DNA from: Spirochaetales bacterium
GTDB lineage: Bacteria > Spirochaetota > Spirochaetia > Treponematales > Treponemataceae
Direction: 5' to 3'
NCBI GenBank assembly: GCA_029098225.1
Contig: JAQXNX010000010.1
Coordinates: forward strand, 62,001 to 126,000
Length of the DNA stretch: 64,000 nt
The notes under the pieces are model-generated. The model was not told the DNA's origin and made no database searches. It worked only from the letters and a program-made list of their open reading frames with translations. How positions within the stretch are numbered: position 1 is the first letter of the stretch; each line of letters starts with the position of its first letter. Below, piece after piece: positions 4,007 through 39,538 of this stretch. The translations under genes were made by a program, and so were the position numbers.

Positions 4007-4066
4007 TTGACTAATTAATCGCTAAATGTTAGTATTTGCTAACTTATATAGTTAGTGTTTACTAAC
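4007..4066 (+). promoter_or_regulatory. Promoter with two GTTAGT palindromes
   Basis: TTGACT (4007-4012) and TAGTAT (4030-4035) are 17 bases apart and could be -35 and -10 elements for the ECF operon. GTTAGTATTTGCTAAC (4028-4043) covers the -10, and a perfect GTTAGTGTTTACTAAC (4051-4066) lies over the expected transcript start. The positions suit repression. The same 16-bp palindrome recurs at many promoters in this window. Confidence 0.7.
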
Positions 4067-4672: not shown

Positions 4673-4673
4673 T

Positions 4674-9836: not shown

Positions 9837-9892
9837 ATTGGCAGCCCCTTTTTGAGGAATACATTGAAACACTGTTTTAATAAGGAGTTACT

Positions 9893-13400: not shown

Positions 13401-13408
13401 AATAAATA

Positions 13409-13435: not shown

Positions 13436-13453
13436 CAAAACACGGAATGTTTT

Positions 13454-15734: not shown

Positions 15735-18700
15735 TTTTTCCTCCCTTTTTTGATTTTGCTCTGTTGTCTATTTCCCAATTATCTGCATTAACAGAAAGCT
15801 TATAGAGTTTCTTAAAATACTCACTATTTTTCATAATTTGCTTTGCAGAGCCTTCTTCAACGACGCGACCATCTTTCAGCAGAACAATTCTGTCCACATT
15901 TTTCAAAGCACTTAATTTATGGGCAATGACAATTACTGTTTTATTTTCGATGATTTTTTCGATTGCCTGATTTATCTTTTCTTCATTTTCAAGATCGATA
16001 GAAGAAGTCGCTTCATCTAAAATGATAATTGGCGCATTCTTCAAAATTGCCCGAGCAAGTGCAATTCTTTGTCTCTCTCCACCTGAAAGTCTTTTTCCGG
16101 CATCACCAGCTTTTGCCATATAACCACCGGGAAGCTTCTGTATAAACTCATTGCAGGAAGCAATGGCCGCTGCCTCTTTTACCTCATCATCACTTGCAGA
16201 AGGTTTTCCTATTCTGATATTTTCCATAATGCTTCTGTTGAAAAGGAAAACTTCCTGAGAGACAAAAGAGATTTCGCAGTTCAGGGCATTTAAACTAAGG
16301 TCAGTAATATTTTTTCTTCCCACAGTAATAAGACCGCCATCCGCATCATATTGATGGGCAATAAGTCGGGCAATTGTTGATTTGCCGCTTCCAGATTCCC
16401 CTACAATGGCCGTCATCTCACCGCCCTTTGCAGTAAAACTTACATCTTTTAATACTTCTTTATCTTTATATGAAAAATGAACATTTTTGAAAGTGATTTC
16501 TGTACTATCAGATTTCGCACCTTCAGCCACTTTTGAAAAATCATCTGTACCTTCCTTCAATGGAGTTCTGTCCAAAACTCTTTCAAGAGCTTGAATCTTA
16601 TAATTCACCTGTGTCATGGAAGCAAGAAAAGAAAGAGCCCTTAATAGATTTCCTCCGGTTGCAAGTGAAAGACATATAATCAAAATTAATTCAGCAAGTG
16701 TAGCCTGCCCGCTCATAACAGCAAGAGAGCCAAGAGGCAGGGTAAATAAAAGCATATTCGGAAGCAGGCTTGTATAAAGAGCAATCCAAGGCCAGCAGAC
16801 TTTATACCAGATAAGGCTCAGCTTTTTATAATTCAAAACGCCGGCTTCATAGTTTTTATAGGATTCATCCTGATAATTAAATACCTTTACAACTTCCATT
16901 CCATTTATGAATTCGATAATCGAATTGTTCATTCTTTTGGCAGCAGCAAAATAACCGCCCATTCTCTCAGTTCCATCTTTATACATTTTTGTCATGCATT
17001 TTAAGCCGATTGGAATTACGATTATTGAAGTGAGGGCTAAAAGCCAGTTTATCTGAAACATAAACACAATTACGATTACCGAAACAAGAAGATTCGAAAG
17101 TCCTTCAGGAATAGCATGAGCAAGAATGATTTCTATACTTTCAATATCATCTGTAAATATTTTTTTTAAAGCTCCGGTTCCAATCTGTCTGATTGTTCCT
17201 AACGACTGTTTGTTTAGTTTTTCCTTCAACTGGATTCTGATTTCTTTTAAGGTGTTAAAGGCTGCTATATGAGAAAACGAAAGCCCCTGAGTATACAGAA
17301 AAACATTAAGAAGACCGCCTCCAAGAATTCCACCCAAAAGGATTGCAAGATTTTTCAAACTGAACGAAAGTCCATTAAGCAGACCGTCAGTTATTTTGTA
17401 AATTGAAAGATAAGGAAGTATGCTTGCCAGAACACCAAATACCATACAAAGAATTGAGGCATAAAAATATTTTTTATATTTGCCCATGCGGTTTATCAGG
17501 CGAACAATTGAAGAAGAATTGTCTCGTTTTTGTGTAAAGGCCTGGTCACTCTCTGTTGTAAAAAAATACTTTACTTTTTCAATTCCTTCTTTATCCAGCG
17601 GATAAGCAGAAACAAGACGGCCTCGTTCAAGATGTACAACATAGTCGCAGCAGTTTAAGATAAGCTCCAAATCATGGGTTATAATTACAGAAGCTTCAAC
17701 TTGTGAATCTGTTTCTTTTACTAATTTGGAAAATCTTTGCATTCCTTCATAGTCGAGTCCGCTTGTAGGTTCATCATAATAAATGACTTTTTTGCCGGAA
17801 CAGAGAGCCGAAGCAATTGCAACTCTTTGCTTCTGACCTCCGGAAAGTGAAGAGGGGTGTCTGTCTTTAAAACCTTCTATACCAAGTTTTTTGAGAACTT
17901 CACAGGCCTCTTCATCGCTTACCTTACTGTTCAGTTTTAATTCTTCGAGAACCGAATCACGGAAAAGCTGATGATTTACATCCTGCATTACCATAAAACT
18001 TTTTTCAGCCCGCTGTTTATCACTCAAAATCTCATTATCCAGGGCAATTGTTCCATTTGATTTTAGGGTGCCGCACAAAGCTTCAGCCAGAGTACTTTTT
18101 CCTGTTCCGTTATCACCTATAAAAGCAATCACACTTTTTTTAGGAAGCTTTAAATCATCAATATCAAGAATTGTTGAGGTTCCTCTCTGGCAGGATAAAT
18201 CGCTTATTGAAATTGCACTTTCAAAATGGCTGGCAGAAATTGGTTCGGCAGTAATTGAATTAAGATTTGTCGTTCTAAGTCCTAGCTTATGTAATTCTTC
18301 TTCGCTAAGCTCTTTCATTTCTTCATTCGTAAATTCTCTTTCAATTTTTCCATCATTTAAATAAATAAAACGGTCTGCAAGTTCCATCAAAAAGTAAAGG
18401 CGATGTTCAGAAACAATAATTGTTTTTCCTTCCTGCTTTAATTTTGTAAGAATTTGCTGAAGGCGATTTATTGCTTTTTTATCAAGATTTGAAGTAGGTT
18501 CGTCCATTACAAAAATGTCAGGCCTCGCTGTATAAACTGAGCCGCAGGCAATCTGCTGTTTTTCGCCACCGGAAAGTTCAAAAAGGCTTCTGCCAAGCAG
18601 CGGGCGAATTTGAAAATCATTCACTGTACCTTCCAGCTGTGCCTTCATTTTTTCTTTACTCATGTTTTGATTTTCACAGCCAAAAACAAGCTCACTTGTC

Positions 18701-19005
18701 GTATCAATATGAAAAAACTGGCTTTTAGGATTCTGAAAAACAGAACCAACAAGTGTAGAGATTTTAGAAATTGGCTCTCTTGGAACATCTATATCATTAA
18801 TAAAAACATGACCTTCCATATCACCTTCATAAAAGTGAGGTGCAAGTCCATTTATGATTCTTGTGAAAGTTGTTTTACCGCAGCCACTTTTTCCACAAAG
18901 AACAACAAACTCTCCATCATTAATTGTAAGATTAATATGTTCAAGACCGTTTTTCTGTCTGGCTTTTCCCGAATAAGAAAAAGAGACGTCTTCAATTTTT
19001 ATCAT
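15727..19005 (-). CDS. Fusion: double ECF ATPase plus ABC exporter-fold half-transporter
   Basis: One uninterrupted 1092-codon frame with three ABC ATPase domains. NBD1: GKSGCGKTT (38-46), LSGGEKQQ (144-151), VMDEPTSNLD, SEHR. NBD2: GDNGTGKST (297-305), LSGGQKQR (387-394), YYDEPTSGLD, THD. A linker of about 480-505 leads to a membrane domain (about 508-790) containing FSHIAAFNT. NBD3 then has GESGSGKST (869-877), LSGGERQR (973-980), ILDEATSSIDLENE. In the plus-strand operon the same functions are separate genes. No internal start with a ribosome binding site is visible at the junction (near MGKYKKYF). The fusion physically joins an ECF motor to an exporter-fold half, so both must act at one membrane site. 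Confidence 0.92.
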   Translation of the reverse strand: MIKIEDVSFSYSGKARQKNGLEHINLTINDGEFVVLCGKSGCGKTTFTRIINGLAPHFYEGDMEGHVFINDIDVPREPISKISTLVGSVFQNPKSQFFHIDTTSELVFGCENQNMSKEKMKAQLEGTVNDFQIRPLLGRSLFELSGGEKQQIACGSVYTARPDIFVMDEPTSNLDKKAINRLQQILTKLKQEGKTIIVSEHRLYFLMELADRFIYLNDGKIEREFTNEEMKELSEEELHKLGLRTTNLNSITAEPISASHFESAISISDLSCQRGTSTILDIDDLKLPKKSVIAFIGDNGTGKSTLAEALCGTLKSNGTIALDNEILSDKQRAEKSFMVMQDVNHQLFRDSVLEELKLNSKVSDEEACEVLKKLGIEGFKDRHPSSLSGGQKQRVAIASALCSGKKVIYYDEPTSGLDYEGMQRFSKLVKETDSQVEASVIITHDLELILNCCDYVVHLERGRLVSAYPLDKEGIEKVKYFFTTESDQAFTQKRDNSSSIVRLINRMGKYKKYFYASILCMVFGVLASILPYLSIYKITDGLLNGLSFSLKNLAILLGGILGGGLLNVFLYTQGLSFSHIAAFNTLKEIRIQLKEKLNKQSLGTIRQIGTGALKKIFTDDIESIEIILAHAIPEGLSNLLVSVIVIVFMFQINWLLALTSIIVIPIGLKCMTKMYKDGTERMGGYFAAAKRMNNSIIEFINGMEVVKVFNYQDESYKNYEAGVLNYKKLSLIWYKVCWPWIALYTSLLPNMLLFTLPLGSLAVMSGQATLAELILIICLSLATGGNLLRALSFLASMTQVNYKIQALERVLDRTPLKEGTDDFSKVAEGAKSDSTEITFKNVHFSYKDKEVLKDVSFTAKGGEMTAIVGESGSGKSTIARLIAHQYDADGGLITVGRKNITDLSLNALNCEISFVSQEVFLFNRSIMENIRIGKPSASDDEVKEAAAIASCNEFIQKLPGGYMAKAGDAGKRLSGGERQRIALARAILKNAPIIILDEATSSIDLENEEKINQAIEKIIENKTVIVIAHKLSALKNVDRIVLLKDGRVVEEGSAKQIMKNSEYFKKLYKLSVNADNWEIDNRAKSKKGGKNA

Positions 19006-19013
19006 TTAAAACC

Positions 19014-19730
19014 TCACTGAAATTTTATAAGGCTTATTACTACAAATCCAAGAAATGAAAAAAGAATAAGATAATCACTGATCTTCATTTTGACTGTTGA
19101 ATAGCAGCTTCTCTTTTTGTTGCTGTCTAAGCCACGAGCCATTGCCGAAGATGCAAGCTCTTCCATCAGTGACATAGAACTGAATAACAAGGGAACCAGA
19201 ATATATTCAATTGTCTGAGCCGGCTTCAACAAAAGATTTTTTAAATCAAATTTTATGCCGCGAAAAAGCATAGCCTTTTTTATACTTTCCCATTCATCTG
19301 ATACAGTAGGCATAAAGCGAATCATTACGATAAAGGGAATTACAAAAGTCATTGGCAGATGCATTTTCTGAAAAGCAGAAATCAAATCTGCCATTTTTGT
19401 AGTTTTTGTAAAAAGGGCAAGGGCCATTAAAACGGGGCATATAACTTTTATCATGACCATAATTGCAGCGCATATCATAGTAAGCGAAGATGTATTTCCA
19501 CTTATAATTATTCCATTAAAGATAAGAAGTACAATTGAACAGCCTGTAAGCCATTTTACTGCCGTAAAACCATCGCCTTCTAAAAAAATAAGAACCCCCA
19601 GAAAAACAATACAGATTATAGCTGACAGAACATCAAGGTTATTAAGTGAGAAAACCATTGATGCCATCAAGATAGCAAGTTTAGTTCTGGGGTCAAGCTT
19701 TAAGATAGAATTAGTATTATCAGAAAACAT
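19014..19730 (-). CDS. ECF transporter T component
   Basis: 238 residues with the EcfT opening ILKLDPRTKLAILMASM, hydrophobic helices, and the coupling regions WESIKKAMLFRGIKFD and LASSAMARGLDSNKKRS (Ala-Arg-Gly). It lies eight bases before the fused ATPase/exporter gene and nine bases after the S-component gene of the minus-strand operon. It is homologous to the product of 4766-5491. It couples the S component to the ATPase domains at the N-terminus of the fusion protein. Confidence 0.88.
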   Translation of the reverse strand: MFSDNTNSILKLDPRTKLAILMASMVFSLNNLDVLSAIICIVFLGVLIFLEGDGFTAVKWLTGCSIVLLIFNGIIISGNTSSLTMICAAIMVMIKVICPVLMALALFTKTTKMADLISAFQKMHLPMTFVIPFIVMIRFMPTVSDEWESIKKAMLFRGIKFDLKNLLLKPAQTIEYILVPLLFSSMSLMEELASSAMARGLDSNKKRSCYSTVKMKISDYLILFSFLGFVVISLIKFQ

Positions 19731-19739
19731 TTTTAAATG

Positions 19740-20345
19740 TTACACAATGTCTGCTTTTTCAAAATGCTTTTTAATAAGCTTAGAACCAATAAAGGCTCCT
19801 ATGATTCCACCAAGAAGGGCACAGCCTATAACCATAATCCATGACCACCATGGAGAAAGAAGTTTTACCATTCCGTCTGCGAACGCACCACCAGCTCTCT
19901 TCTGTAAATTTGCAATATAAGCGTCCTTTGCAAAAAAGATTCTTATGAAGTTAGCGGCAGTTCCAATATTAAAGAAAACATAAGAAATTGCGTACCACAA
20001 TTTTGATTTGTATCTTCCGATTAAAATACAGATTTCTGCAAGTACAGCTGAAATCACACAAACAGAAAATGCAATCGGATTAAACCCAGTTGAAATACAG
20101 GCAAAGAGCAATTCAATAATAAGTGCTGCACCAAATTTTCTGACTTTTGTTACGCTTAATAAATAAATTGAACCTAAAAGAATTCCAAGAATACATGGAC
20201 ACAAAACATAAAGAATTGGAACTGTTCCAACAACCATCATAATACCAAGAACGGCAATTAAATAAATTGCGGCAAAAGCTCCTGCAAAAATCAAATCTTT
20301 AACAGTTAACTTTTTTGAATTACTTTTTTCGACAATGTCACTCAT
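19740..20345 (-). CDS. MptD-family ECF transporter S component (third)
   Basis: 201 residues, starting MSDIVEKSNSKKLTVKDLIF and ending GSKLIKKHFEKADIV. The KDLIFAGAFAAIYL opening and IKKHF tail closely match the product of 4088-4672, so the two operons share a common ancestor. About five or six membrane helices. It is the first gene of the minus-strand operon, preceded by AAAGGAAA and by three operator palindromes. The substrate is unknown; in ECF systems it is set by this subunit. Confidence 0.86.
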   Translation of the reverse strand: MSDIVEKSNSKKLTVKDLIFAGAFAAIYLIAVLGIMMVVGTVPILYVLCPCILGILLGSIYLLSVTKVRKFGAALIIELLFACISTGFNPIAFSVCVISAVLAEICILIGRYKSKLWYAISYVFFNIGTAANFIRIFFAKDAYIANLQKRAGGAFADGMVKLLSPWWSWIMVIGCALLGGIIGAFIGSKLIKKHFEKADIV

Positions 20346-20358: not shown

Positions 20359-20475
20359 GTTAGTTTTTACTAACTCGTGTAATATAATAAAGACAAAATA
20401 TTTTGTCAATATTTTCAGTTAGTCTTGACTAACCTATAAATCTAGTATATTATACAATTGTTAGTTTCAACTAAC
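20359..20475 (-). promoter_or_regulatory. Promoter region with three perfect GTTAGT palindromes
   Basis: Perfect palindromic half-sites GTTAGT/ACTAAC with four-base spacers lie at 20359-20374, 20418-20433 and 20460-20475. On the minus strand TTGACA (20409-20404) and TATATT (20386-20381) are 17 bases apart and form a good promoter for the S-component gene. One operator falls just downstream of the expected start and one just upstream of the -35. A second possible -10 (TATAAT) is at 20454-20449. Confidence 0.75.
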
Positions 20476-24478: not shown

Positions 24479-24519
24479 GTTAGCTTCGCCTAACTTTATA
24501 ATAGTTAGTATATACTAAC
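24479..24519 (-). promoter_or_regulatory. xylA promoter with two GTTAGT palindromes
   Basis: GTTAGCTTCGCCTAAC (24479-24494, one mismatch between arms) and the fully palindromic GTTAGTATATACTAAC (24504-24519) lie 26-66 bases before the xylA start. On the minus strand the perfect copy sits between a TTGTTA-like -35 and a TATAAA -10, so a bound protein would block RNA polymerase. Confidence 0.65.
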
Positions 24520-25603: not shown

Positions 25604-26206
25604 TTATTTCCTTACACACTCCGCATACATTAAATCAATGCGACCGGGAACTACTTGGCTTGCGGTGATTTTCCAGCCATTGCTTTCTATGAAAGTTTTG
25701 AATTCTCCGGCAGTCCACTGATGAGCAAAATGGATTCCCACAAGCCTGAGGATTTTTGCCCATAGGTTTTCCTTTTTCGCTGCAGAACGATGAATAAAAG
25801 TCGGGCAGATAAGAAGACCGCCATCTACAAGCACACGGTTAATTTCCGACAAAACCTTTTCCGGATTCGGAACTACGTGAAGTGCGTTTGCAATAATCAC
25901 AACGTCAAAAAACTTGTCTTCATAATGAAGGTCGCTGGCATCGGCAATTTCAAATACAACGTTAGAAGGTACTTTTCCTTTCTTTGCCTGCTCTATCATC
26001 TCCGGAGAGAAATCTGTCGCAACAATTCTTTCTGCCGACCAGGCAACATTTTTAGCAATAAGTCCCGGCCCGGTTGCCAGCTCAAGAACCTTCTTCCCCA
26101 TTACTGCATCAGCAATATGTGAATACATATAATCATAAATATTTTTCTGCGACTTCATCGCCAGTGAATAAATTGGTGCAAATCTATCCCAGATTGTTTT
26201 ACTCAT
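25604..26206 (-). CDS. Class I SAM-dependent methyltransferase
   Basis: 200 residues with the SAM-binding motif VLELATGPGLIAKN, acidic ATDFSPEM, the next strand DASDLHYEDKFFDVVI and post-motif LSEINRVLVDGGLL. This is the Methyltransf_11/UbiE-like pattern. The substrate is unknown. It starts ten bases after the stop of the DUF6796-like gene and ends the operon that begins with the PacL-like gene at 29611. The link to metal export is only positional. Confidence 0.85.
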   Translation of the reverse strand: MSKTIWDRFAPIYSLAMKSQKNIYDYMYSHIADAVMGKKVLELATGPGLIAKNVAWSAERIVATDFSPEMIEQAKKGKVPSNVVFEIADASDLHYEDKFFDVVIIANALHVVPNPEKVLSEINRVLVDGGLLICPTFIHRSAAKKENLWAKILRLVGIHFAHQWTAGEFKTFIESNGWKITASQVVPGRIDLMYAECVRK

Positions 26207-26215: not shown

Positions 26216-26875
26216 CTAAAGCAGATTCAGCATTCCAATCAGTCCAAACATTCCAAGGCCAAGACTCGGCATTATGATTCCCGGTAAATCCTGAAACTTT
26301 ACCGGGTTTATTTTACGACAAGTAATTCCAAAAATCAGGAAAACAAGAGGATTCAAAATCACGCAGATTTTCGGGACATCAAGCACCCCTTCCACAATCG
26401 CAATAATCACCGTAACTGTTGGTGCCAGCAAACTAATGTAGCCGGTAATAAATGGCACGGCAACCTGTTTGTAAATCTTTTCCAAAATATCATCGGCAAT
26501 CTCCAGACTTCCACGTTTCATAGCACCCTTGTAAATCAGAGCCTGAAGGCAGCAAAGAGAATGAATCAGGATTCCTGCAAAAGAACCGAAATAACCGAAG
26601 CCCAGTGTGAGATAACCTAGTACCGGCCGAACTGCTGCAATCTGCATTCCAAGGGAATAAAAGCCAAGACAAACAAGAGCATCGCCAATAAGCGCAAGAG
26701 CAATAGACCAGCCGAATCTCCAGTCTGCCATTTTCGTCCAGTTGCTGTCGATGTTTTTTGAAGTACCAAGCTTCTGATTCCCACGCCCCTTCAAATCAAA
26801 AAGTATGTCACCAGTAGCACAAAGCAGTCCGCCGGCAAGTCCTAAACATGAAAATACAAAATACAAATTATTCAT
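26216..26875 (-). CDS. DUF6796-like integral membrane protein
   Basis: 219 residues with about six hydrophobic segments, for example FSCLGLAGGLLCATGDILFD at the N-terminus and LGLGMFGLIGMLNLL at the C-terminus. I recognise the pattern (early GD.LFDLKG, central LG.L.L.FG) as that of DUF6796-type proteins, whose function is unknown. It lies between the methyltransferase and the HMA-like gene with gaps of nine and one bases, so it belongs to the same transcript. The domain name is from memory and less certain than the membrane topology. Confidence 0.65.
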   Translation of the reverse strand: MNNLYFVFSCLGLAGGLLCATGDILFDLKGRGNQKLGTSKNIDSNWTKMADWRFGWSIALALIGDALVCLGFYSLGMQIAAVRPVLGYLTLGFGYFGSFAGILIHSLCCLQALIYKGAMKRGSLEIADDILEKIYKQVAVPFITGYISLLAPTVTVIIAIVEGVLDVPKICVILNPLVFLIFGITCRKINPVKFQDLPGIIMPSLGLGMFGLIGMLNLL

Positions 26876-26876: not shown

Positions 26877-27200
26877 TTATTTCCTCATTTTTTCAACTTG
26901 TAATTTTATTTCCGCAATTCCAGCAAGAATATCAGTTTTTTTCTTTGGCGTATAAAAGCGGATTTTGGGTTCTATTTTTAGAAGAAGAGGCAGAAGCGGC
27001 TTGAGTGTATCGGGATTTACAGAGGCTTCTGGATATATTGCCAGAATGCTCGCTGTGCTTTCCTTATAGGTGATTTCTGCCTGAGGGCAGATTATGCGTA
27101 CAACTTCGAGGGCAGCATTTCTGATGTCTGTGTCGCGGAGAACGGGGTCGCGGAATCGCAGGCGACCGGGAAAATAATTATAAGTCATAACTCGGTTCAT
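26877..27200 (-). CDS. HMA-like small protein
   Basis: 107 residues starting MNRVMTYNYFPGRLRFRDP. The PGRLRFR word followed by a ferredoxin-like alternation matches the HMA_2-type domain. It resembles the N-terminus of the P-type ATPase encoded next door (HSIPGRIRIRYD). There is no CxxC metal-binding pair. It is probably a soluble partner or decoy of the ATPase's own regulatory domain. The start is unclear: ATG 27188 is an alternative, and both are close behind a hairpin repeat. Confidence 0.7.
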   Translation of the reverse strand: MNRVMTYNYFPGRLRFRDPVLRDTDIRNAALEVVRIICPQAEITYKESTASILAIYPEASVNPDTLKPLLPLLLKIEPKIRFYTPKKKTDILAGIAEIKLQVEKMRK

Positions 27201-27208: not shown

Positions 27209-27233
27209 GGTCATTTCGACAAGCTCAATGACC
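27209..27233. repeat. Hairpin repeat forming the 3' end of the P-ATPase gene
   Basis: GGTCATT-TCGACAAGCTC-AATGACC. On the minus strand the core reads GAGCTTGTCGA as at 13409-13435, with different arms. The last codons of the ATPase gene (RSLSLSK) and its TGA lie inside the element. Confidence 0.8.
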
Positions 27234-29340
27234 GGTTATCCAGCACCGGCTTCATGGCATTTACGCTGAAGGCAACGGTTGAAGCGTTATGCAGGATTGC
27301 AGCCATAGAAGGCGAAATAATTCCGAACAAGCCCAGCACCATAAAGCTTGTGTTTACCGCAACTATGCCACGATTATTTGTGTCGATTTTTTCGATAAGT
27401 CTTGTGCCAAGAAGTCGGGTTTTGTACAAGCCTTCCAAGCCGTCCTCGCTGGAAAGAATTATGTCTGCTGTCTCGCCGGTAATATCTGCACAGTCACCCA
27501 TGGCAATTCCTGTGTCGGCAGCGGCGAGAGCTGGAGCATCGTTTATTCCATCGCCAATCATGATTACTTTATGGCCCAGGCGCTTTTGTTCTTCTATATA
27601 TTTAAATTTATCTTCCGGCAAAGCACGCGAAATATAGTGGTCGATTTTTGTGATTTTTGCGGCATTGCGGGCGGCACCTTCGTCATCACCGGTAATCATT
27701 ACACAATTTTTGACACCACTCTGGTGAAGCTTTTTGATGATTGCAGGAGCATTTTTTCTTACGGGATCATTAATTGCAAAAATGCCAATCAGCTCTTTTT
27801 CTTCTGCAAGATACAAAAGTGATTCGCCATTTTCTATTGCTTCCTTCTGGATCTTCTCAAGTCCTTCCGGCTCTTTTACTTTTTCATCATCAAAAATAAA
27901 ATGCCGGCTACCGATAGTTAGTTTCTTACCATGCAGTTTTGTTGCAATTCCGTGAGCCACAATGTATTCAACCTTTGCATGCTCTTCCGGATGAAGGAGG
28001 CCACGCTCGCTTGCTGCATGAACCACCGCTGTTGCGATAGGATGAGCAAAGTGTTCTTCTAGACAGGCCGCAAGAGCAAGCACTTCATTTTCTTCCCGAC
28101 CGCCAAAAGTCATTATGCGGGACAACTGCGGTGTAGCTGCCGTCAAAGTTCCAGTCTTATCAAAAACAACTGTATCTGCCAGAGAGGCTTCTTCCAGGAA
28201 CTTTCCGCCTTTTACGATTATTCCGTTTTCAGCCGCTTCCTTCATTGCACTCAAAACAGCAATAGGAGAAGCAAGTTTCATGGCACAGGAATAGTCAACC
28301 ATCAGAGTTGCCATAACTTTTGTCATATTGCCGGTTGCAAGGAAAACAGCAAGAGAAAGCAGGAAGTTATATTTCACAAGAGAATCAGCCAGATGCTCAG
28401 AGCGAACCTGAGAGGAAACCTTAAGTGACTGCGAATTATCTATCATTGTAAGAATATTCTGAACCTTTGTCTGACTTCCAGTTGCACGGACTTCAATAAA
28501 AAGCTCACCTTCCTGAACAACAGTGCCGGCAAATACAGAAGCTCCCTCCCGCTTTTCAACCGCAAGAGGCTCCCCGGTAATTGACGCCTGATTTACAAGC
28601 CCTTCACCGCGAATAACTTCACCATCTACAGGAATTACACTTCCGGTACGTACCGCAACCAGATCCCCTTTTTTCACAAAGGAAAGCGGCACAGATTTTT
28701 CTACAGTCTCACCCTTTTCATTTTTAGTAACCAGCTGCACCTGATTATTCTGGGAAAGCAGTCGATTAGCAAGATCGGAATAAGATTTCTTTTTTGTAAA
28801 GTCTTCGATTGTGTCACCGATATTCAGCAGGAAATTGATATTTGAAGCTGTCTTTGTATCGCCTGTAATAAGTGCCATGGAAATTGCGGCAGCATCAAGC
28901 ACTTCAGATTTAAAGATATTACCTGTCGCAACCTGCTCCACGCCCTTCAAAATACGTGGCCCTAGCGACCAGACTCGTAAAGCAAGTCTTACCGGTAGCG
29001 GCAATATCTGTTTAAAGTAATGCCAGGCTGTCATACAGGCAAGATCAAAAAGAAGACTTTCTTCTTCCTGTGGCTCTTCAACAGTCTCCAGCATTTCCTG
29101 ATTTTTCAGATATTTGTCTGAAAGCGCCATGAAATAGGCACGTATGTGTTTTTCGGATAATTGTTTTGTATCGTAATAAATGAGGAAGGAAGCAGTCGTG
29201 TAGTTCACAGAAACATCTGTCATTCCTTCCTGAACAGAAAGCAGACTGTGTGCAAGGGCAGCCTGTCGCTTAGAAATTTTTGATTTATCATAGCGGATTC
29301 GGATCCGCCCTGGAATTGAGTGTCTTATAATGAAATCCAT
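27211..29340 (-). CDS. P1B-type metal-transporting ATPase
   Basis: 709 residues. N-terminal HMA_2-like domain (HSIPGRIRIRYDKS, about 1-75) without CxxC, then membrane helices, the actuator motif ITGEPLAV, phosphorylation site DKTGTL, ATP-binding HP motif (EEHFAHPIA) and hinge GDGINDAPAL. The ion-site helix reads DYSCAMKLASP where copper pumps have CPC. An SC motif of this kind recalls mycobacterial CtpC-type pumps linked to manganese or zinc. It should export a transition metal from the cytosol. The last residues come from a palindromic repeat. Two GTTAGT-type operators precede the operon. Confidence 0.92.
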   Translation of the reverse strand: MDFIIRHSIPGRIRIRYDKSKISKRQAALAHSLLSVQEGMTDVSVNYTTASFLIYYDTKQLSEKHIRAYFMALSDKYLKNQEMLETVEEPQEEESLLFDLACMTAWHYFKQILPLPVRLALRVWSLGPRILKGVEQVATGNIFKSEVLDAAAISMALITGDTKTASNINFLLNIGDTIEDFTKKKSYSDLANRLLSQNNQVQLVTKNEKGETVEKSVPLSFVKKGDLVAVRTGSVIPVDGEVIRGEGLVNQASITGEPLAVEKREGASVFAGTVVQEGELFIEVRATGSQTKVQNILTMIDNSQSLKVSSQVRSEHLADSLVKYNFLLSLAVFLATGNMTKVMATLMVDYSCAMKLASPIAVLSAMKEAAENGIIVKGGKFLEEASLADTVVFDKTGTLTAATPQLSRIMTFGGREENEVLALAACLEEHFAHPIATAVVHAASERGLLHPEEHAKVEYIVAHGIATKLHGKKLTIGSRHFIFDDEKVKEPEGLEKIQKEAIENGESLLYLAEEKELIGIFAINDPVRKNAPAIIKKLHQSGVKNCVMITGDDEGAARNAAKITKIDHYISRALPEDKFKYIEEQKRLGHKVIMIGDGINDAPALAAADTGIAMGDCADITGETADIILSSEDGLEGLYKTRLLGTRLIEKIDTNNRGIVAVNTSFMVLGLFGIISPSMAAILHNASTVAFSVNAMKPVLDNRSLSLSK

Positions 29341-29360
29341 ATTACACTTCTTTGAAAAGA

Positions 29361-29409
29361 TTGTCGGGTCAAGCCCGACAATGACAATTAATGCCCGACA
29401 ATGACAACT
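29361..29409. repeat. TTGTCGGG hairpin repeat with partial duplication
   Basis: TTGTCGGG-TCAAG-CCCGACAA (29361-29381) followed by ATGACAATTA and a second partial copy GCCCGACAATGACAAC (29393-29408). This is a third palindromic repeat type. It lies in the gap between the small membrane protein and the P-ATPase within one operon, and its right end touches the stop of the upstream gene. Confidence 0.75.
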
Positions 29410-29611
29410 AGGCCTTTGCTTCCTGTTCTGCCTTTACGTCCTCGGCATCTTCTTTGATTGTTTCAAAGTATTCTTTAGCATCATCCTTGAGCTGAAGTCC
29501 GCCTGCAACAAGCTTGGCACAGCCCTTTCTGAAGGTATCTGTCTTAATCAAAGCGGCAGCTGCAAGACCTGCAACTACTCCCCACAAAAATTTCTTTCCA
29601 CCATCTGTCAT
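29408..29611 (-). CDS. Small DUF6110/PacL-like membrane protein
   Basis: 67 residues: one glycine/alanine-rich membrane helix (FLWGVVAGLAAAALI, about 9-23) and a charged amphipathic tail with LVAGGLQLKDDAKEYFETI then an acidic end. It resembles the mycobacterial PacL scaffolds (DUF1490), which have the same helix-plus-tail plan and stabilise and assist P-type metal ATPases. Here it is the first gene of the P-ATPase operon, preceded by AGGAGG. The DUF6110 name is from memory; the PacL parallel is an inference from layout and pattern. Confidence 0.7.
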   Translation of the reverse strand: MTDGGKKFLWGVVAGLAAAALIKTDTFRKGCAKLVAGGLQLKDDAKEYFETIKEDAEDVKAEQEAKA

Positions 29612-29648: not shown

Positions 29649-29810
29649 ATTAGGCTGTACTAACTCTATAGTTTGTTTTAACTAACAATACCACTAAATA
29701 AAGTTATTTGCAACTAACGTTTTGAGCGAAAAGTGTTAAAAGTTTAGCGTCTTTTGGTAGAACCGGTAAAAACAGCAATATAAAATCTTTTACAGTTAGT
29801 TTTATCTAAC
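29649..29810. promoter_or_regulatory. Divergent promoter region with three GTTAGT-like palindromes
   Basis: ATTAGGCTGTACTAAC (29649-29664) and GTTTGTTTTAACTAAC (29671-29686) lie on the P-ATPase side, and GTTAGTTTTATCTAAC (29795-29810) lies 23 bases before the MMPL start. Each departs from the consensus by one or two positions. A lone half-site CTAAC occurs near 29714. The gap of about 220 bases separates two divergent transcripts that would be co-regulated. Confidence 0.6.
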
Positions 29811-29833
29811 TTTATTTCCTTATGGAGGATTTT

Positions 29834-32176
29834 ATGAAAGTCTCAAAAATCAATAAGTTTTTCCGTAGAATCGGCGAAGCGCAGATTAAACACCGAAAGC
29901 TTTGTCTGATTATTCTTTTTGCAGTTACACTCGTATGTCTTTCCGGAATGCGCAATTTCCGTTCAGAAAGCTCTAACAGCGACTGGATTGTAAATGGCAG
30001 CGAAATCAAAAAGAACTCTGACCATTTTAAGGAAGTTTTTGGTAACGACCAGTATGTTCTTGTTCTGGTTCAGGCAGATGATGTTTTTGCACCTGATGTT
30101 CTTAATATGATTGACCGACTTGGAGAACGGCTCGAAACAGAAGTTCCTTTTGCAGATAAGGTTACTTCCCTTACAACGGTTTCCATCCCGATTGGCGACG
30201 AAGAAGGCTTTGAAGTAAAAAGCCCTTTCAACGACGGAATCCCAACTGATGCCCACGAGCTTGCAGAAAAGAAAGCTTTTATTCTGAGCCGCGAGTCCAT
30301 CGTAAATAACCTTGTTTCCGACAACGCCAAAGAATGCTGGATTTCCTTAAAACTTAATCCTTTCAAAAACGAAAGCGAGGATGTTTCAGCCGTAGGTCAT
30401 GCCGCAGAAAAGGTTATTATGAGCGAGGAGTTCAAAAGTGACCGCTGGACACTCATGCCAATCGGAAGCGCCTACACCACTGCCGAAAAGGAAGATGTTC
30501 TCACAAAGGATTTTGCTTCCCGAATCGCACTTGGCTTCTTAGTTATGCTGATTTGTCTTATCATTTTTGCACGATCTGTTTCCGGTGTAATTGTTCCATT
30601 TATGGCAACCCTTTTTGGAATCGGTACCGTCCTTGGTTTTACAGGTCTTATAAACGTTCCCGCCGATTCTGATATGATGACTCTTCCTGTTCTTTTGGGA
30701 ATGGCACTTTCAATCGGATACGCCCTCCACTACATCAACGCATTTAAAATGCACTTCCGCCAGACCGGTAAAAGAAAGGAATCTGTAATTGAAGCTGTTG
30801 GCGAAACCGGCTGGCCAATTTTGTTCACCGTAATTACCACTGCAGTATCACTTCTTTCCTTCCTCTTTGCAAACATCCGCCCTATGATCTGGCTTGGTGC
30901 AGTTGCATCAACAGTTGTCATCATGGTTTATCTTTATGTAGTAATTTTGATTCCAATTTTCCTCAGCTTTGGAAAAGATAAAAAGCCGGCACTTGCAGAA
31001 ACAAAAGGCGCAACAAAGGCAGACCTGACATTTGAAAACATTGGTAAAAAAATTGTAAAACGCAGCAAGCTCGTAACTCTTCTTTCTATGCTTGTGATTG
31101 TTTTATGTATTCCAGGCCTTCTCAAAATGGAAGTAAACATGGACTATTTAAAGTTCATGGGAAATAAAGTTCCTTTTGTTCAGCGAATCGAAAAAATCCT
31201 TGAAACAAAGCTCGGTAACATTTACAGCTATGACGTTATGATTGAGTTTGATGAAGAGGATGCTTTTAAAGACCCTGAAAACATGCTTGCCCTTGATAAA
31301 CTTGAACAGGACCTTGGAAAGCTTCAGATGACAAAAATCACAAACGGAAAACCTCGAGTAAGAAGTATTACAAGACAGGTAAAGGAAATGTACCGTGTTC
31401 TCAATGGTGATGACCCGGCATATTACACAATTCCAGAAGAACAGGATATGCTTACCCAACTGCTCTTCTTCTATGAGATTTCAAACAGCGAAGCTCTTTT
31501 TGATGAACTTTCCGAAAGCTACAATGCCGTTTATGCCCACGTAGAAATTTCTGATTACAATGCAAACCTGATTGTTGAGGATATTACCGCCGCAGAAGAA
31601 GCAGCAAAAAAATACTTCCCGACTGCCCATGTTGCAGTTGTAGGAACTATTGCCGAAAACGCCGCTATGAACGAAACGGTTGTAAAGAGCGAGCTTAAAT
31701 CCTTTGGAGCTTCATTCATCATGATTGCCATTCTTCTGATAATCGTATTTGCAAGCATCAGAACAGGCCTTATTGCAATGATTCCAAATCTTGCGCCGGT
31801 TCTTCTGATTGGTGCGATTATGGGTTATTTCCACATGGCTCTTGATGAACTCACAATGATGATTATGCCTATGATTTTAGGAATTGCAGTTGATGATACG
31901 ATTCACTTCTCCAATCACATTAAGGCAAAGCTTGAAACAGGTAGAAGCTATGCAGACGCAGTTATAGAAAGCTTCCGCGAAATCGGAAAAACAATGGGAA
32001 CTACAACCTTCATTTTGTGTGCAATGTTCCTCATGTACTGCTTCAGCCCGATTACGGCAATGTTCAGAATCGGTCTTCTTTCGATGATAGGTTTAGGCTC
32101 TGCCCTTATTGCAGACTATACCCTCACCCCAGCGTTGATTTATCTCACAAAGCCACTGGGAAAGAAGTATAACTAG
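29834..32176 (+). CDS. MMPL/RND-superfamily exporter
   Basis: 780 residues with the two-fold RND plan: a first helix, a large periplasmic loop, five helices with sterol-sensing-like PVLLGMALSIGYALHYINAF, then a repeat half ending in MILGIAVDDTIHFSNHIKAK. These two motifs carry the proton-relay region. Such proteins move lipids or other hydrophobic molecules using the proton gradient. The start at 29834 (MKVSKINKFF) is set by GGAGG seven bases upstream; ATG 29822 overlaps that site. It is a paralogue of the 46455-48809 product (MKVTKINDWF start) but has different operators and no LolA-like or barrel partner. Confidence 0.9.
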   Translation: MKVSKINKFFRRIGEAQIKHRKLCLIILFAVTLVCLSGMRNFRSESSNSDWIVNGSEIKKNSDHFKEVFGNDQYVLVLVQADDVFAPDVLNMIDRLGERLETEVPFADKVTSLTTVSIPIGDEEGFEVKSPFNDGIPTDAHELAEKKAFILSRESIVNNLVSDNAKECWISLKLNPFKNESEDVSAVGHAAEKVIMSEEFKSDRWTLMPIGSAYTTAEKEDVLTKDFASRIALGFLVMLICLIIFARSVSGVIVPFMATLFGIGTVLGFTGLINVPADSDMMTLPVLLGMALSIGYALHYINAFKMHFRQTGKRKESVIEAVGETGWPILFTVITTAVSLLSFLFANIRPMIWLGAVASTVVIMVYLYVVILIPIFLSFGKDKKPALAETKGATKADLTFENIGKKIVKRSKLVTLLSMLVIVLCIPGLLKMEVNMDYLKFMGNKVPFVQRIEKILETKLGNIYSYDVMIEFDEEDAFKDPENMLALDKLEQDLGKLQMTKITNGKPRVRSITRQVKEMYRVLNGDDPAYYTIPEEQDMLTQLLFFYEISNSEALFDELSESYNAVYAHVEISDYNANLIVEDITAAEEAAKKYFPTAHVAVVGTIAENAAMNETVVKSELKSFGASFIMIAILLIIVFASIRTGLIAMIPNLAPVLLIGAIMGYFHMALDELTMMIMPMILGIAVDDTIHFSNHIKAKLETGRSYADAVIESFREIGKTMGTTTFILCAMFLMYCFSPITAMFRIGLLSMIGLGSALIADYTLTPALIYLTKPLGKKYN

Positions 32177-33193: not shown

Positions 33194-33985
33194 TTATATA
33201 ACATAAAGGGGTTCCACACTGCGATAATGTCGGTTTTCAAAATCAAAGTCGTTTATATGAACCTGCACATTAAAGGTACGACGCATATTTTCTTCATTTA
33301 TGATATCGTCTGTCATTCCAAAAAGTGCATTATCATTTTTATTTAAAATCAAAGCTTTTGTACCAATCTTCATTGCATGGGCCGGAAAATGTGTATTTAC
33401 GATGGCAGAAATATTTTTTTCCAGGGCAAGCTTTTCAATTATGTTTAAAATTATAAGCTGATTTTTAAAATCGAGATTTGATTCAGGTTCATCAAGTACA
33501 AGCATTTGTGGATTGGCAGTGAGAGCACGTGCAATTAAAACCATCTGCAGTTCTCCTCCACTCATCTGTGTACAAAGCTTATCTTTCAACCAGGTGATTC
33601 CACAGGTCTCCATAGCTTCAAGAGCAAGTTTTTCATCCTCTTTTGTAGGCTGCGAAAAAGTACCAAGATGCGCACTTCGTCCCATTGTAACCATATCCAG
33701 AGCACTAAAAGAAAAAACAGAATTTTTTGCCTGAGGTACATAAGCAACCTTTTTCCAGAATTCCCGGTTTGGAATATGACTTATATTTTTACCGTCAAGA
33801 AGCGTTTCTCCTGTATGCCATTTCTGTAAACCCATCATACATTTGAGTAAAGTAGTTTTTCCAACGCCATTAGAACCAAGCACACAAAGAATTTCTCCAT
33901 TACTCAAATCAAAGTTTATATTATTAAGAATCCGGCGGCTCCCATAAGAGAAGCTGCCGTTTTTTACCTGAAAGGTCATGCCCAA
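33194..33985 (-). CDS. FecE-type ABC transporter ATPase
   Basis: 263 residues: Walker A GSNGVGKTT, signature MSGGELQM (in place of LSGGQ), Walker B MLVLDEPESNLD and switch His in VNTHFP. It energises the permease encoded just upstream, with which it overlaps by ten bases. The family imports iron-siderophores, haem, cobalamin or other tetrapyrroles. It is the last gene of the nitrogenase-like/importer operon. Confidence 0.92.
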   Translation of the reverse strand: MGMTFQVKNGSFSYGSRRILNNINFDLSNGEILCVLGSNGVGKTTLLKCMMGLQKWHTGETLLDGKNISHIPNREFWKKVAYVPQAKNSVFSFSALDMVTMGRSAHLGTFSQPTKEDEKLALEAMETCGITWLKDKLCTQMSGGELQMVLIARALTANPQMLVLDEPESNLDFKNQLIILNIIEKLALEKNISAIVNTHFPAHAMKIGTKALILNKNDNALFGMTDDIINEENMRRTFNVQVHINDFDFENRHYRSVEPLYVI

Positions 33986-34992
33986 ACTCCTCCAGTTTTT
34001 CTGAGTAAACTGATGAATACTGGTGCACCTATAATTGCAGTTAAAATCGAAATTGGGATTTCTGCAGAAGATGCACTTCGTGCAAAGGTATCTATAATCA
34101 TCATAAAAACTGCTCCAAATGAAATACTTAATGGTACAACAGTCTTATTATTACTTCCTAAAAGCATTCTTGAAATATGCGGGATAAGTAAGCCGACCCA
34201 GCCTACCTGACCGCACATAGAAATAACAGATGCTGTAATAAGTGACGATGCAACTATTATAAATAATCTGAGTGCTTTAATATTCAAGCCCATAGATTTT
34301 GCTTCATCTTCATTCAGCGAAAGAATGTTTATTCTCCATTTCAATGCGTAGATGATTCCACAGCCCAAAACAATAAAAGGCAGTCCGAATAAAAGACTTT
34401 TATAAGTTACTGTAGACATGCTCCCCATAAGCCAGTAGGTAATGGAAGGAAGTTCATCTTCAGGATCGGCCATGTATTTTACGATAGAAACCATTGCCTG
34501 AAAAAGCGACGATATTACCATTCCAGAAAGAATAATCATGATTATAGACGACTTTCCCTTTATGCGGCTTATTTCATAGGTTAGAAAACAGGAAAGAAGT
34601 CCAAAGCAAAGTGCCAGAAGTTGAATTCCTATAAGATTCCAGTGAAACATCATTGCAAGTACAGCTCCAAAAGAAGCTCCGCTTGCAACACCAAGTGTAT
34701 CGGGAGTTGCTAAAGGATTTGAAAACAGACCCTGAAAAGCAGCTCCGGAACATGCAAGTCCCGCTCCCGCAGCAAGTGCAAGTATAATTCTTGGAAGCCT
34801 TACTTTAAACACAACAGTATTTGCCATAACATCCCGAGTGACACCTGTAATTGAGTCAGCAAAAGCCCTTAAAATCTGAAGTGGAGATAAGCTGTATCTT
34901 CCGATTCCAAGACAAATAAGAGCTGTAAGCGGAATCAATAAAAAGGAAATCAGGATAAAAAGTGTCTGAACTTTTTTATTGTTGATTACCAT
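33976..34992 (-). CDS. FecCD-type ABC transporter permease
   Basis: 338 residues with about nine or ten helices. Family landmarks are VFKVRLPRIILALAAGAGLA near the N-terminus, LATPDTLGVASGASFGA, and the ATPase-contact loop CGQVGWVGLLIPHISRMLLG. It is the membrane channel for the binding proteins encoded at 35008 and perhaps 39539. It starts 15 bases after the binding-protein gene. Confidence 0.93.
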   Translation of the reverse strand: MVINNKKVQTLFILISFLLIPLTALICLGIGRYSLSPLQILRAFADSITGVTRDVMANTVVFKVRLPRIILALAAGAGLACSGAAFQGLFSNPLATPDTLGVASGASFGAVLAMMFHWNLIGIQLLALCFGLLSCFLTYEISRIKGKSSIIMIILSGMVISSLFQAMVSIVKYMADPEDELPSITYWLMGSMSTVTYKSLLFGLPFIVLGCGIIYALKWRINILSLNEDEAKSMGLNIKALRLFIIVASSLITASVISMCGQVGWVGLLIPHISRMLLGSNNKTVVPLSISFGAVFMMIIDTFARSASSAEIPISILTAIIGAPVFISLLRKTGGVWA

Positions 34993-35007
34993 TATTGATT
35001 CCTGTTT

Positions 35008-36114
35008 TTAATTTGTTTTACCAGATGCGGCTCGAGACGGATTATAGATAGTCTGAATATCCTCAGGTGTTAAATCTACGTTGTAATATTTCTTATAATA
35101 TTCTTTTATATTTTTATCCATGTCGATATCGCTGAACAATTCAGGCTGAATCTTTGTTGCAAGCCACTGAATAACAAGAGGAGTATCGCTTGCAGGCGGG
35201 AACCAGCGGTACATTCCAAGAGGGAATTTATAAACCTTTCCTTCTTGAACAGCCTTTACCAGAGACCAGTCTGCCCCATCAATCTTATTTTCAAGCAAAT
35301 CTTCTGCAAGGCGGGGACTAAAGTTTGTAATAAAAATCATATCAGGATTCCACTGGTAAACCTGCTCCATATTGATTTTTCCCTGTCCCTTAAAATCAGC
35401 TGCTACGTTAATTCCTCCGGCAGTTCCAATCCAGTATTCGCTGAAGAATGTACTTCCTGCTGCAGTCATATTTGAATCATCATAATTAAAGAGAATAAGA
35501 ACACGAGGCTTTTGTGAATCATCAAGCTTATTTACACGCTCAAGAATTTCATTCTGAACCTTGCGTCCTTCTGCAATAATTTTATCAGCTCTACCTGTAT
35601 CTCCAAAAATCTGACCCAAAAGGTTAATCCAGTCCGCATAGGTTTCTACAGAATTATAGCCCGAAAGTGTAACAGAAAAACCTATAGCAGGAATTCCCGC
35701 ATTTTCATAAACCTGACGCTCTTCTTCATTCGAAGCAGAATAAAAAACAACATCCGGCTTAAGCTTTAAAAGCTCTTCTACATTGATTGCCCCGTTTTGA
35801 ACAAAAGAAGAATCTATCTTTGTTACTTCCGGATAAACTGTTGCCAGATAAGAATTTTTTGCAGCAGCCATTGATGATGGATACATTCCCACAAGCCTTT
35901 CTGTGGATCCCATATACATACAGTAAACAGAAGCAAGAGGAAGAATAGAACCAATTACAATTCTGTTTAGCTCTGCAGGAATTACAACTTCTCTTCCTGT
36001 ATGATCAATTATTGTACGTGTAGCAGGAGCTGTAGAAGCAGTCTGCTTTTTAGTACATCCGGCAAAATTGAAAATCATACTCAAGGCAAATATTGCCAGC
36101 AATGATTTTTTCAT
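35008..36114 (-). CDS. Iron-siderophore-type solute-binding lipoprotein
   Basis: 368 residues with a lipoprotein signal ending FAGC (lipidated Cys20) followed by TKKQTAS. The PF01497 fold is recognised by RTIIDHTGREVVIPAELNRI, INVEELLKLKPDVVFY and WNPDMIFITNF. It would deliver a chelated metal or tetrapyrrole to the FecCD/FecE pair encoded downstream. It is about 45-50% alike by eye to the divergent product of 39539-40651. An 88-base gap with a weak hairpin separates it from the nitrogenase-like gene upstream. Confidence 0.92.
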   Translation of the reverse strand: MKKSLLAIFALSMIFNFAGCTKKQTASTAPATRTIIDHTGREVVIPAELNRIVIGSILPLASVYCMYMGSTERLVGMYPSSMAAAKNSYLATVYPEVTKIDSSFVQNGAINVEELLKLKPDVVFYSASNEEERQVYENAGIPAIGFSVTLSGYNSVETYADWINLLGQIFGDTGRADKIIAEGRKVQNEILERVNKLDDSQKPRVLILFNYDDSNMTAAGSTFFSEYWIGTAGGINVAADFKGQGKINMEQVYQWNPDMIFITNFSPRLAEDLLENKIDGADWSLVKAVQEGKVYKFPLGMYRWFPPASDTPLVIQWLATKIQPELFSDIDMDKNIKEYYKKYYNVDLTPEDIQTIYNPSRAASGKTN

Positions 36115-36202
36115 AATAAAACTCCTTTTAACCCGAGGGGACCAGATAAGCTCCCCTAAGGCACCTTTATGATTTTGCTCTCTACCAGGATTTTTGCAGA
36201 GA

Positions 36203-37378
36203 TTAGTTTCCAGAAATTACGCTCTTAACAAAATCTGAAAATTCCTTTGAAATAAACCTGACCGGCTTATCCCAGTAAACTTTACTTGATACTGCAACAT
36301 GAGGAAGAGCATAAAACTCTATTCCATTGTCTTTTGTATTCTCTGTAATTAATTGCTCAACTAAAGGATCTGCAACAATCTTCTGATATTTTCCACTGTT
36401 CAAAAGTTCACGCAGATGTTTTTCATCTTTTACAATTACATCACCATCGCGCATAAGCTCTTTTGTTGCATCAAACATTATTCCGACTGTTGTATTTTCT
36501 TTTTTTAATCCAAGGGCTTCAAAGTATTCACGGATTGTATTTGCTATAACCTGCTCACCTGCTATAAATATTTTTTTATCTGTAATATTGGTAAGCGGTT
36601 TTGGATTAAAGGAAAACTTTTCCGGCTGGATTTTCGCAAGAATCTGCATACCCATGAGCATTGGAGTTCCAGTAACAAATGGAATTCCATATTTTTCTTT
36701 CATAAAAACAGCGGTATCATAACCACTCTGTGAAACAACAACATTTAGTCTGGATTTCACAGAATTCTTGAACTGCTCAAAAGTACAGCCCATTGTAAAA
36801 CAGCAGTTTACTTTTATTCCATTGTCTTCAAAAAGCTTTACAAAATCCGAAGCATTTGGCCCCTTTGCAAAATCAAGGGGAGTCATTCCAAGAATATTTA
36901 TTCCGTCATTCTTTTCTTCTTCACGGATTTTCAAAGGGCAAACCTTTTTCATAAGACTTATGATTGCAGCATTAATACCCTTTCCATAATAAGCAAGTCC
37001 TCGCGTAGAAAGACCAATAGAAGGAAGTCCGGTAACAGTTTCAATTTCAGCAGCCAGACCTTCAAAATCTGTACCAATTACCATTGGAACAGGACTTCCA
37101 AGAAGCGCTATAAAATTCGGTTTTATACTTTCAGCAGCTTTCTTGATTCTCTCAACAAGAAGATTATCATTTCCTAAAATCGCATCCATATGGCGCAAAC
37201 CAGAACAATAAACAGCAGTATGTGAACCAAGCCAGCGAGGCTCATCATAACCCGTATAATTTCCTGTACAGCCTGCAGCATCGTGAATAACAATCATGCC
37301 GCCAAGTTCAAATAAAGCCGAGGCTGCACCAGAATAATCTGGTGCAAGAGGCGGAAGCATAATACAAAGTTTACTCAT
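36203..37378 (-). CDS. Nitrogenase component 1-like protein (NifD/K family), short
   Basis: 391 residues. The opening LPPLAPDYSGAASALFELGG and VIHDAAGCTGNYTGYDEPRW give one Cys at the position of the conserved P-cluster Cys. The third position is non-cysteine (LLGSPVPMVIGTDF), and no clear cofactor Cys/His pair is visible. It is shorter than NifD or NifK. This fits the group of nitrogenase-like proteins that do not fix nitrogen and act on other substrates such as tetrapyrroles or sulfur compounds. It shares ATGA with the other component-1 gene and should form a heteromer with it. Confidence 0.85.
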   Translation of the reverse strand: MSKLCIMLPPLAPDYSGAASALFELGGMIVIHDAAGCTGNYTGYDEPRWLGSHTAVYCSGLRHMDAILGNDNLLVERIKKAAESIKPNFIALLGSPVPMVIGTDFEGLAAEIETVTGLPSIGLSTRGLAYYGKGINAAIISLMKKVCPLKIREEEKNDGINILGMTPLDFAKGPNASDFVKLFEDNGIKVNCCFTMGCTFEQFKNSVKSRLNVVVSQSGYDTAVFMKEKYGIPFVTGTPMLMGMQILAKIQPEKFSFNPKPLTNITDKKIFIAGEQVIANTIREYFEALGLKKENTTVGIMFDATKELMRDGDVIVKDEKHLRELLNSGKYQKIVADPLVEQLITENTKDNGIEFYALPHVAVSSKVYWDKPVRFISKEFSDFVKSVISGN

Positions 37379-38640
37379 ACAATCAGCTTAGCCCCCGAAA
37401 TAATTTTATTTACATCGGTTTTATGGGTAACCGCATATTCCATTTTTTTCATAAGCTCTTCAATTCCCCAAAAGCCATAAAGATATTCATCTTCCATCAG
37501 ATCAACAACATGCTCAGACTCTGTAAGATATCCGCCTGAAAAACCTATACAAAGACACTCAGGCATTTTGTTTTCCATTTTTATGCTGTCCGGATGAAGG
37601 GCGGAAATAATTTTTATGTCAGGATTTTTTTCAAGCAGCCACATGCACTTTTCTTTTTCAAAAGCACTTATGTCATCACAGAAAATCATCTTAACATTAA
37701 AACCATATTCAACTAAAACTTTAGCAAGAGAAAAAGGCTTTAAAACAGACTGATAATCAATTACAAGAGGTGTATCACCGGAAACTTCTTTTGCATGTTT
37801 GATAGAAGCAATTGCAGAGGCCTTATAACCTGAATAATCAGAAAATTTTACTCCAAGATTTTTTTGCAGGCTTTGATAGTAAGCTTCTATTTCTTCTGGA
37901 TCATAAGTATTAAAGGACAACTGATAAGGAATACCTGCAAGTTTTTCCATTCTTTCTGCAGCCATTTTTGCACAGGGATGAAGCACAAGATTCAGACTGC
38001 TCTGCCCCATACTCATAAAATCATCAAAGCTGGAGCAGCGTCCGGCATGTTTGATTTTATAACCCTGTTCCTGAAGAAGAGTATAAAGCTCACAATCTTC
38101 TTTTATGTACGCATTATTTCCAATCATGTTGATTTGCTGCAGCTTGGGAAGCTTCTTATCGAACAGATGATACATAGAAAGCTGTAAGCCAACTGCAGGT
38201 GGAATTTTTGTATCAGCCTTAAATGGATTCATATGAGCCGTTACAAAATTTACATCAGGATACATCTGTGAAAGTTCTGCATTTAATGATTCATGATCTG
38301 TTCCAAGTAAATCATCGAGGCAGGAAACAAAAATAAAAAGAAGCTTTGGTTGTTTTTCAAGAAATTCAAAAAGCTCTGTCACTGCATCCGGAATAAGGTT
38401 TTCATAATTTCCAGAAACAATATCAGCTTCATCAATATAAAGATAATGAATTCTGTCTTTTATTCCATTGATGATTCCGCCCAACGCTCCATGACGACCA
38501 CAGGCAAAAGGACACACAAAAAGCATACGGCTTTCCGGAATTAAAGCAGCGACTCTTATTACACCCCAGCCTCCATGAGCAGGAGAAACATATTGCAGAG
38601 TTTTTTCAAAAGAAGGACAGGCTGTCTTACACTCACACAT
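37375..38640 (-). CDS. Nitrogenase component 1-like protein, partner subunit
   Basis: 421 residues from the start at 38640, which follows GGAGG and overlaps the NifH-like stop by eight bases. The frame is open further upstream, but those 59 extra residues are the NifH gene read out of frame. Cysteines that could hold a cluster are in [19 protein letters not shown] and [10 protein letters not shown], a pattern unlike classical NifD/NifK. The component-1 fold is seen in the repeated Rossmann-like blocks. It would take electrons from the NifH-like reductase. The substrate is unknown. Confidence 0.82.
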
Positions 38641-39405: not shown

Positions 39406-39523
39406 GTTAGTTTTTACTAACATTTATTAAAGTTAGACAAAACTAACAATAATTATTAAAAAAGTCAACACTTTTCATCCTTGACAAGTAAAGCCAAAAA
39501 CTTTATTGTTAGTCTCTACTAAC
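39406..39523. promoter_or_regulatory. Divergent promoters with three GTTAGT palindromes
   Basis: Perfect arms at 39406-39421 and 39508-39523, one mismatch at 39432-39447 (GTTAGACAAAACTAAC). Towards the binding-protein gene: TTGACA (39481-39486), 17 bases, TATTGT (39504-39509), with the operator starting on the last bases of the -10. Towards the NifH-like gene: TTGACT (39468-39463) and an operator over the -10 position. The arrangement implies repression in both directions. Confidence 0.75.
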
Positions 39524-39538
39524 TTACAAGGAGTTTTT

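Follow-up and report, generated by a model that had tools for sequence, protein, structure and literature searches.

The operon described here, in a rumen Treponema, is probably a fez-type (ferrosome) cluster that would be made in iron shortage and would pump Fe(II) into a compartment. It lies on the minus strand of the window, meaning the whole stretch of 64,000 nucleotides that was analysed, and its genes are read in the order small membrane protein, ATPase, HMA_2-like protein, DUF6796 protein, methyltransferase and SGNH protein. The three core reading frames share one strand and are tightly spaced: a 67-aa single-helix membrane protein of the DUF6110/YtxH type (29408..29611, FezA-like), a 709-aa P1B6-type ATPase (27211..29340, FezB-like) and a 107-aa HMA_2-like protein with no transmembrane segment (26877..27200), the conserved third gene in Treponema. 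An earlier note on this DNA had placed and described a small gene, an SC-motif ATPase and an HMA-like protein in this way, and reading frames, motifs and Pfam matches agree with it. The DUF6796 membrane protein (26216..26875, minus strand) and the SAM methyltransferase (25604..26206, minus strand) are probably co-transcribed and fall outside the conserved core, the latter being found near the cluster in several, not all, close relatives. These two genes and the SGNH gene were considered as parts of the system and dropped, since their place next to the pump is not conserved among relatives. On the other side, an MMPL-family transporter (29822..32176, plus strand) diverges from behind the same operator region, and it is also found near the cluster in loci L061-L063.

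The ATPase carries an HMA_2 domain at its N-terminus, VDYSCAMK in TM4, the DKTGT and EEHFAHP motifs, and LHN in TM6. The SC pair in TM4 is what we take to be the mark of the P1B6 subgroup, and the full signature, SC in TM4 together with HN in TM6, is present in the window ATPase. A scan of species genomes with the pump alignment gave at least 591 confirmed candidates, and the best 80 of these, which are the closest matches to the window pump and not a sample of all P1B6 pumps, have HN in 80/80 and SC in 79/80 cases, the exception (L162) having CC. They come from Treponema, Deferribacteraceae/Mucispirillum, Clostridia, Desulfovibrionaceae, Synergistaceae and a few other groups. FezB is likewise said to be a P1B6 pump, and the gene order expected of a fez cluster, in which the gene for a small membrane protein directly adjoins that of a P1B6 ATPase, is present here.

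The small gene occurs in 18 of 59 genomes of relatives (19 rows, own genome included), and it is therefore a real gene rather than a chance reading frame. In Pfam, its product matches YtxH best (E 1.4e-5) and DUF6110 (PF19605) next (E 0.0052; 17.3 bits against a cut-off of 26 bits), both below the curated cut-offs, while the same profile search gave no match to DUF1490 (PF07371) at E<=1. The picture becomes clearer across the 88 aligned members of the small-protein family, the window protein among them. At E<=1, DUF6110 matches 84 of these (best 1.9e-41), YtxH 30 and, weakly, DUF1490 21 (best 1.7e-5), the relation between DUF6110 and DUF1490 being assessed by such sequence-to-profile match counts. 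A GxxxG motif, GVVAG in the window protein, lies in the first 60 residues of 87/88 members and is followed in the window protein by an amphipathic acidic tail. The structure model of the 67-aa protein (two helices, pLDDT 69, pTM 0.34) is too weak to build on. Judged by its sequence, the small protein is DUF6110-like and a distant relative of PacL without the metal-binding tail of the latter.

The earlier note had likened this protein to the PacL scaffolds of mycobacteria, and the plan it described is retained as far as the DUF6110 type and the weak DUF1490 similarity are concerned; profile similarity between the families does exist. A PacL-type role in metal tolerance or efflux finds no support, because the metal-binding motif is missing, the pump has SC rather than CPC and the regulon is of an iron-starvation type. 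Such a role would make the small protein the scaffold of a Zn/Cd/Mn exporter in an effluxosome, as PacL1 is for CtpC, and this reading is improbable: it draws on the DUF6110-DUF1490 similarity, found here and in a passage of the 2022 PacL paper (PMC9374683), and on the resemblance of the GxxxG motif to transmembrane glycines of PacL described in part of a 2026 paper (PMC13043812), but it meets a protein in which the C-terminal His/Asp motif of PacL is absent (the tail ends in EDVKAEQEAKA, and only 1/88 members has two or more His within the last 20 residues), a pump with SC and not CPC and an operon that shares its regulon with feoB and flavodoxin. The regulon, set out below, is what places a Zn/Cd/Mn effluxosome behind the iron reading.

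Pump and small gene are almost always found together. Among the genomes of relatives (18 genomes, 19 rows), the orthologous ATPase adjoins the small gene in 17/19 rows; in the other two, the gene stands at a contig end (G013) or the pump has been lost (G025). The loss in G025 (L072, 6436-6908) is a deletion of ~2.2 kb that starts inside the small gene and stops close to the end of the pump gene, taking the tail of the former and nearly the whole of the latter and leaving the HMA_2-like gene in place. A small gene lies upstream of the pump in 77 of the best 80 related loci, and in the other three (L095, L113, L140) the contig breaks off at the start of the pump gene or close to it. A DUF6110 search of 392 genomes of the phylum matched 34 genomes (35 rows), 12/392 above the cut-off, and in all 20 spirochaetal loci that were fetched (20 of the 35 rows) the pump is directly downstream; some of the weak rows among the other 15, in long frames, look like chance matches. 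The co-occurrence with this ATPase subgroup proposed in the earlier note is thus borne out, and within the testable loci the small gene lacks its pump only in G025, where one deletion affects both. That the two proteins act together is strongly supported by this co-occurrence. It also bears on the view that the 67-aa protein is a generic YtxH-like stress protein which lies beside the pump by chance; YtxH is indeed its best Pfam match, but the near-obligate pairing with P1B6 ATPases and the excess of DUF6110 over YtxH matches in the family make this very improbable, and it was set aside on the pairing counts.

As a proteobacterial example, on an Azospirillum plasmid (L220), an HMA2 protein, a YtxH protein and a P-type ATPase with a P1B6-like pump sequence stand in one cluster, and on a Deinococcus plasmid (L221), a DUF6110 gene and a P1B6-like ATPase are found near transposases. 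Two rumen MAGs labelled Deltaproteobacteria (L102, 79% identity) and Fibrobacter (L104, 67%) resemble Treponema so closely that they have probably been misbinned.

The third core gene is retained in those loci of relatives in which the sequence continues past the pump, with the exception of L069, a locus of another family. The start sites of orthologues suggest that the true start of the 107-aa frame lies ~4 codons downstream. Its product gives a confident model (pLDDT 90.9) that has no significant match in a Foldseek search of the PDB (best E 0.071), and its family assignment therefore rests on the Pfam HMA_2 match. Neither a DUF4405 match nor a transmembrane segment was found in it, so that it is not a FezC-type cytochrome. 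A separate HMA_2-like frame downstream of the pump is present in 19 of the best 80 loci, none of them clostridial. In a Desulfovibrionaceae locus (L146, 8093-8587), the protein of the third gene joins HMA_2 to a hydrophobic C-terminus with two His, possibly a FezC-like cytochrome part; no plasmid homologues of this protein were found.

Evidence for a link to iron comes from the promoter. A palindrome, GTTAGT-N4-ACTAAC, lies upstream of the small gene and of its close orthologues, and in the divergent promoter region between the small gene and the MMPL gene the candidate operator GTTAGTNNNNACTAAC is present in four copies (29649..29810; 1-2 mismatches). Further candidate operators occur three times at 39406..39523, between a NifH/NifDK-like and FecCD operon (minus strand) and a Peripla_BP_2 gene (plus strand); three times, all perfect, at 20359..20475, before a Trep_Strep/CbiQ/ABC operon (minus strand); twice at 24479..24519, before an operon of a 440-aa protein, a DHODB-like protein and RNase_T (minus strand); and twice at 4028..4066, before another Trep_Strep/CbiQ/ABC operon (plus strand). 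The promoters at 4028, 20359, 24479 and 39406 are thus candidates for membership in the same regulon as the pump operon. Within the window, 22 sites match with <=2 mismatches where 1.24 would be expected, and 0/100 shuffles reached this number. At <=1 mismatch, the own genome has 56 sites against 11 for a reversed control, and the 14 perfect sites among the matches listed all fall within C10:31923-101523, a 70-kb stretch containing the operon. G003 shows a similar enrichment (66 sites against 15 in the control). The genome-wide excess is slight in G015 (14 against 12) and G011 (7 against 5), and no enrichment was found in G032 (6 against 19) or G031 (3 against 7); in the divergent Treponema clade, the palindromes are weaker or different.

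The genes behind these sites include FeoB, flavodoxin, AraC with paired ABC transporters, ECF/ABC systems and FecCD with a periplasmic binding protein (PBP), as well as MATE/Mntp (manganese) and enolase. Three one-mismatch operator copies precede feoA-feoB-dtxR. One DtxR-type gene is present per genome in 5/5 genomes, and in the own genome (G000) as in G003 it follows feoA-feoB, with operators upstream; a Fur homologue is present too. In G003, the pump operon and flavodoxin diverge around two perfect operators with feoA-feoB-dtxR adjacent, and in T. bryantii (G015) the pump operon, flavodoxin, FeoB and DtxR share one contig with operators. Flavodoxin and Feo together are a textbook signature of iron shortage (for C. 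difficile, PMC6311696, in part). The regulon is, as far as its gene content tells, of the iron-starvation type, and the operator common to feoB, flavodoxin and feoAB-dtxR places the pump operon in it. Among clostridial and other late-listed relatives, a Fur box (<=3 mismatches) lies upstream in 12/56 cases, the control being 4.7% of shuffles of all 76 upstream regions, a modest enrichment.

The same region has other noteworthy features. An apparent iron-regulon island of ~70 kb, made up of window positions 1-39523 and G000:C10:31923-62000 (L192, L193), has the palindrome in many of its promoters and contains FeoB, flavodoxin, and several ABC and ECF systems. NifH/NifDK-like genes form one operon with FecCD, an ABC ATPase and a binding protein (33194-39391, minus strand; 39506-40651, plus strand), and the same operator precedes it, linking a nitrogenase-like system to iron-type uptake. 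The two Trep_Strep/CbiQ/ABC (ECF-like) operons (4055-14089, plus strand; 14073-20345, minus strand) include paired ABC exporter-type subunits, and one of them encodes a 1092-aa protein with three ABC domains.

The direction of this regulation also speaks to the possibility that the pump works in the cell membrane, expelling Fe(II) when iron is in excess, with no organelle involved. P1B pumps export, and the iron context of the operon would suit such a task; yet an operon that shares its operators with uptake systems and flavodoxin is predicted to be expressed when iron is short, the opposite of what a pump against iron excess would need, and the operon parallels fezAB, which is Fur-repressed according to the part of the C. 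difficile work available. We consider simple efflux of this kind unlikely.

The preferred reading, a fez-type cluster, can be outlined as follows. The FezA-like protein would gather copies of the FezB-like pump through its GxxxG helix and amphipathic tail, and the gathered pumps would form a membrane patch or vesicle, into which the pump would move Fe(II) from the cytoplasm. The scaffold action, the transport into a compartment and the formation of an organelle are modelled on ferrosome and PacL work; iron as the substrate, expression in iron shortage and a regulator of DtxR type are suggested by the regulon and the neighbouring genes. As a guess, the HMA_2-like third protein might dock on the HMA_2 end of the pump or hand over iron. 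In iron shortage the operon would be expressed alongside feoB, flavodoxin and siderophore-type transporters, allowing the cell to bank iron once it returns, and the likely switch would be a DtxR-type repressor acting at GTTAGT-N4-ACTAAC. Points against this reading are the uneven enrichment of the site among genomes, the other palindromes of the divergent Treponema clade, the Fur homologue, the Fur boxes before only 12/56 clostridial and other late-listed loci, the operators before Mntp and enolase, and a third protein that is no FezC-type cytochrome and has no significant PDB match.

Part of this was in print before. The relation of DUF6110 to DUF1490, the lack of a metal-binding motif in DUF6110 proteins and their typical encoding with P1B6 pumps are stated in a passage of the 2022 PacL paper (PMC9374683), and a section of the 2026 paper names DUF6110 proteins PacL-like (PMC13043812). 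The link outside mycobacteria that the earlier note raised as a point of interest is, as far as DUF6110 and P1B6 pumps are concerned, not new. In the literature searched, we found no report of a ferrosome or fez cluster in Treponema and no paper joining the effluxosome and PacL (PacL1/DUF6110/DUF1490) to the ferrosome and FezA, and the available text of the two PacL papers (PMC9374683, PMC13043812) does not contain the word ferrosome; this is weak evidence, because most subscription papers, both primary ferrosome papers included, lay outside that search. The two literatures appear to study relatives without cross-naming. We tentatively suggest that FezA-type ferrosome proteins and PacL effluxosome proteins may form one superfamily of one-helix scaffolds gathering P1B pumps into membrane platforms, of which storage organelles and efflux platforms would be two outcomes of one assembly principle, and Treponema the spirochaete case under a DtxR-type iron switch. 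If the ferrosome reading is true, spirochaetes, the rumen species T. bryantii and T. socranskii (loci L098 and L105) among them, would have iron-storage organelles too. The conserved GxxxG helix would then offer one testable set of residues for FezA and PacL, and the operator palindrome a ready list of Treponema genes that are probably iron-controlled.

Desulfovibrio magneticus reportedly has fezABC, a three-gene form with a P1B6 pump, and six-gene clusters are said to exist also; the Treponema operon shares the number of three genes with the former, and differs in a third protein that is a soluble HMA_2 protein only. FezC, by contrast, belongs to ferrosomes and is homologous to DUF4405, according to an excerpt (PMC10979944). 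The FezC-type cytochrome is accessory and not defining for a fez cluster, because FezA and FezB are named as those needed for ferrosomes in C. difficile, where they are repressed by Fur (PMC12574912, in the part available). The genes of C. difficile fezAB are CD630_05910-05920 in an available portion of one study (PMC11651100), and a table of iron-regulated genes in an iron/Fur study gives the pair positive values and the labels 'ATPase' and 'Hypothetical protein' (PMC6311696, in part). Compared by description rather than by sequence, that pair and the Treponema operon have in common a gene for a small hypothetical or membrane protein joined to an ATPase gene and, as far as the regulon predicts it for Treponema, repression by iron, whereas Treponema has in addition the HMA_2-like third gene and a regulator that looks DtxR-type, not Fur. 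With PacL1-3 and their partners CtpC, CtpV and CtpG, as far as the available parts of the two PacL papers describe them (PMC9374683, PMC13043812), the Treponema proteins share a single transmembrane helix with a small-residue motif, a charged tail and an operon with a P1B ATPase; unlike PacL, the Treponema protein has neither the metal-binding motif nor a DUF1490 match of its own, and its pump is of the P1B6 (SC) type in an iron regulon, not CtpC-like with CPC. The small protein appears to belong with the DUF6110 family, which 84 of the 88 relatives match, the window protein itself scoring below the cut-off.
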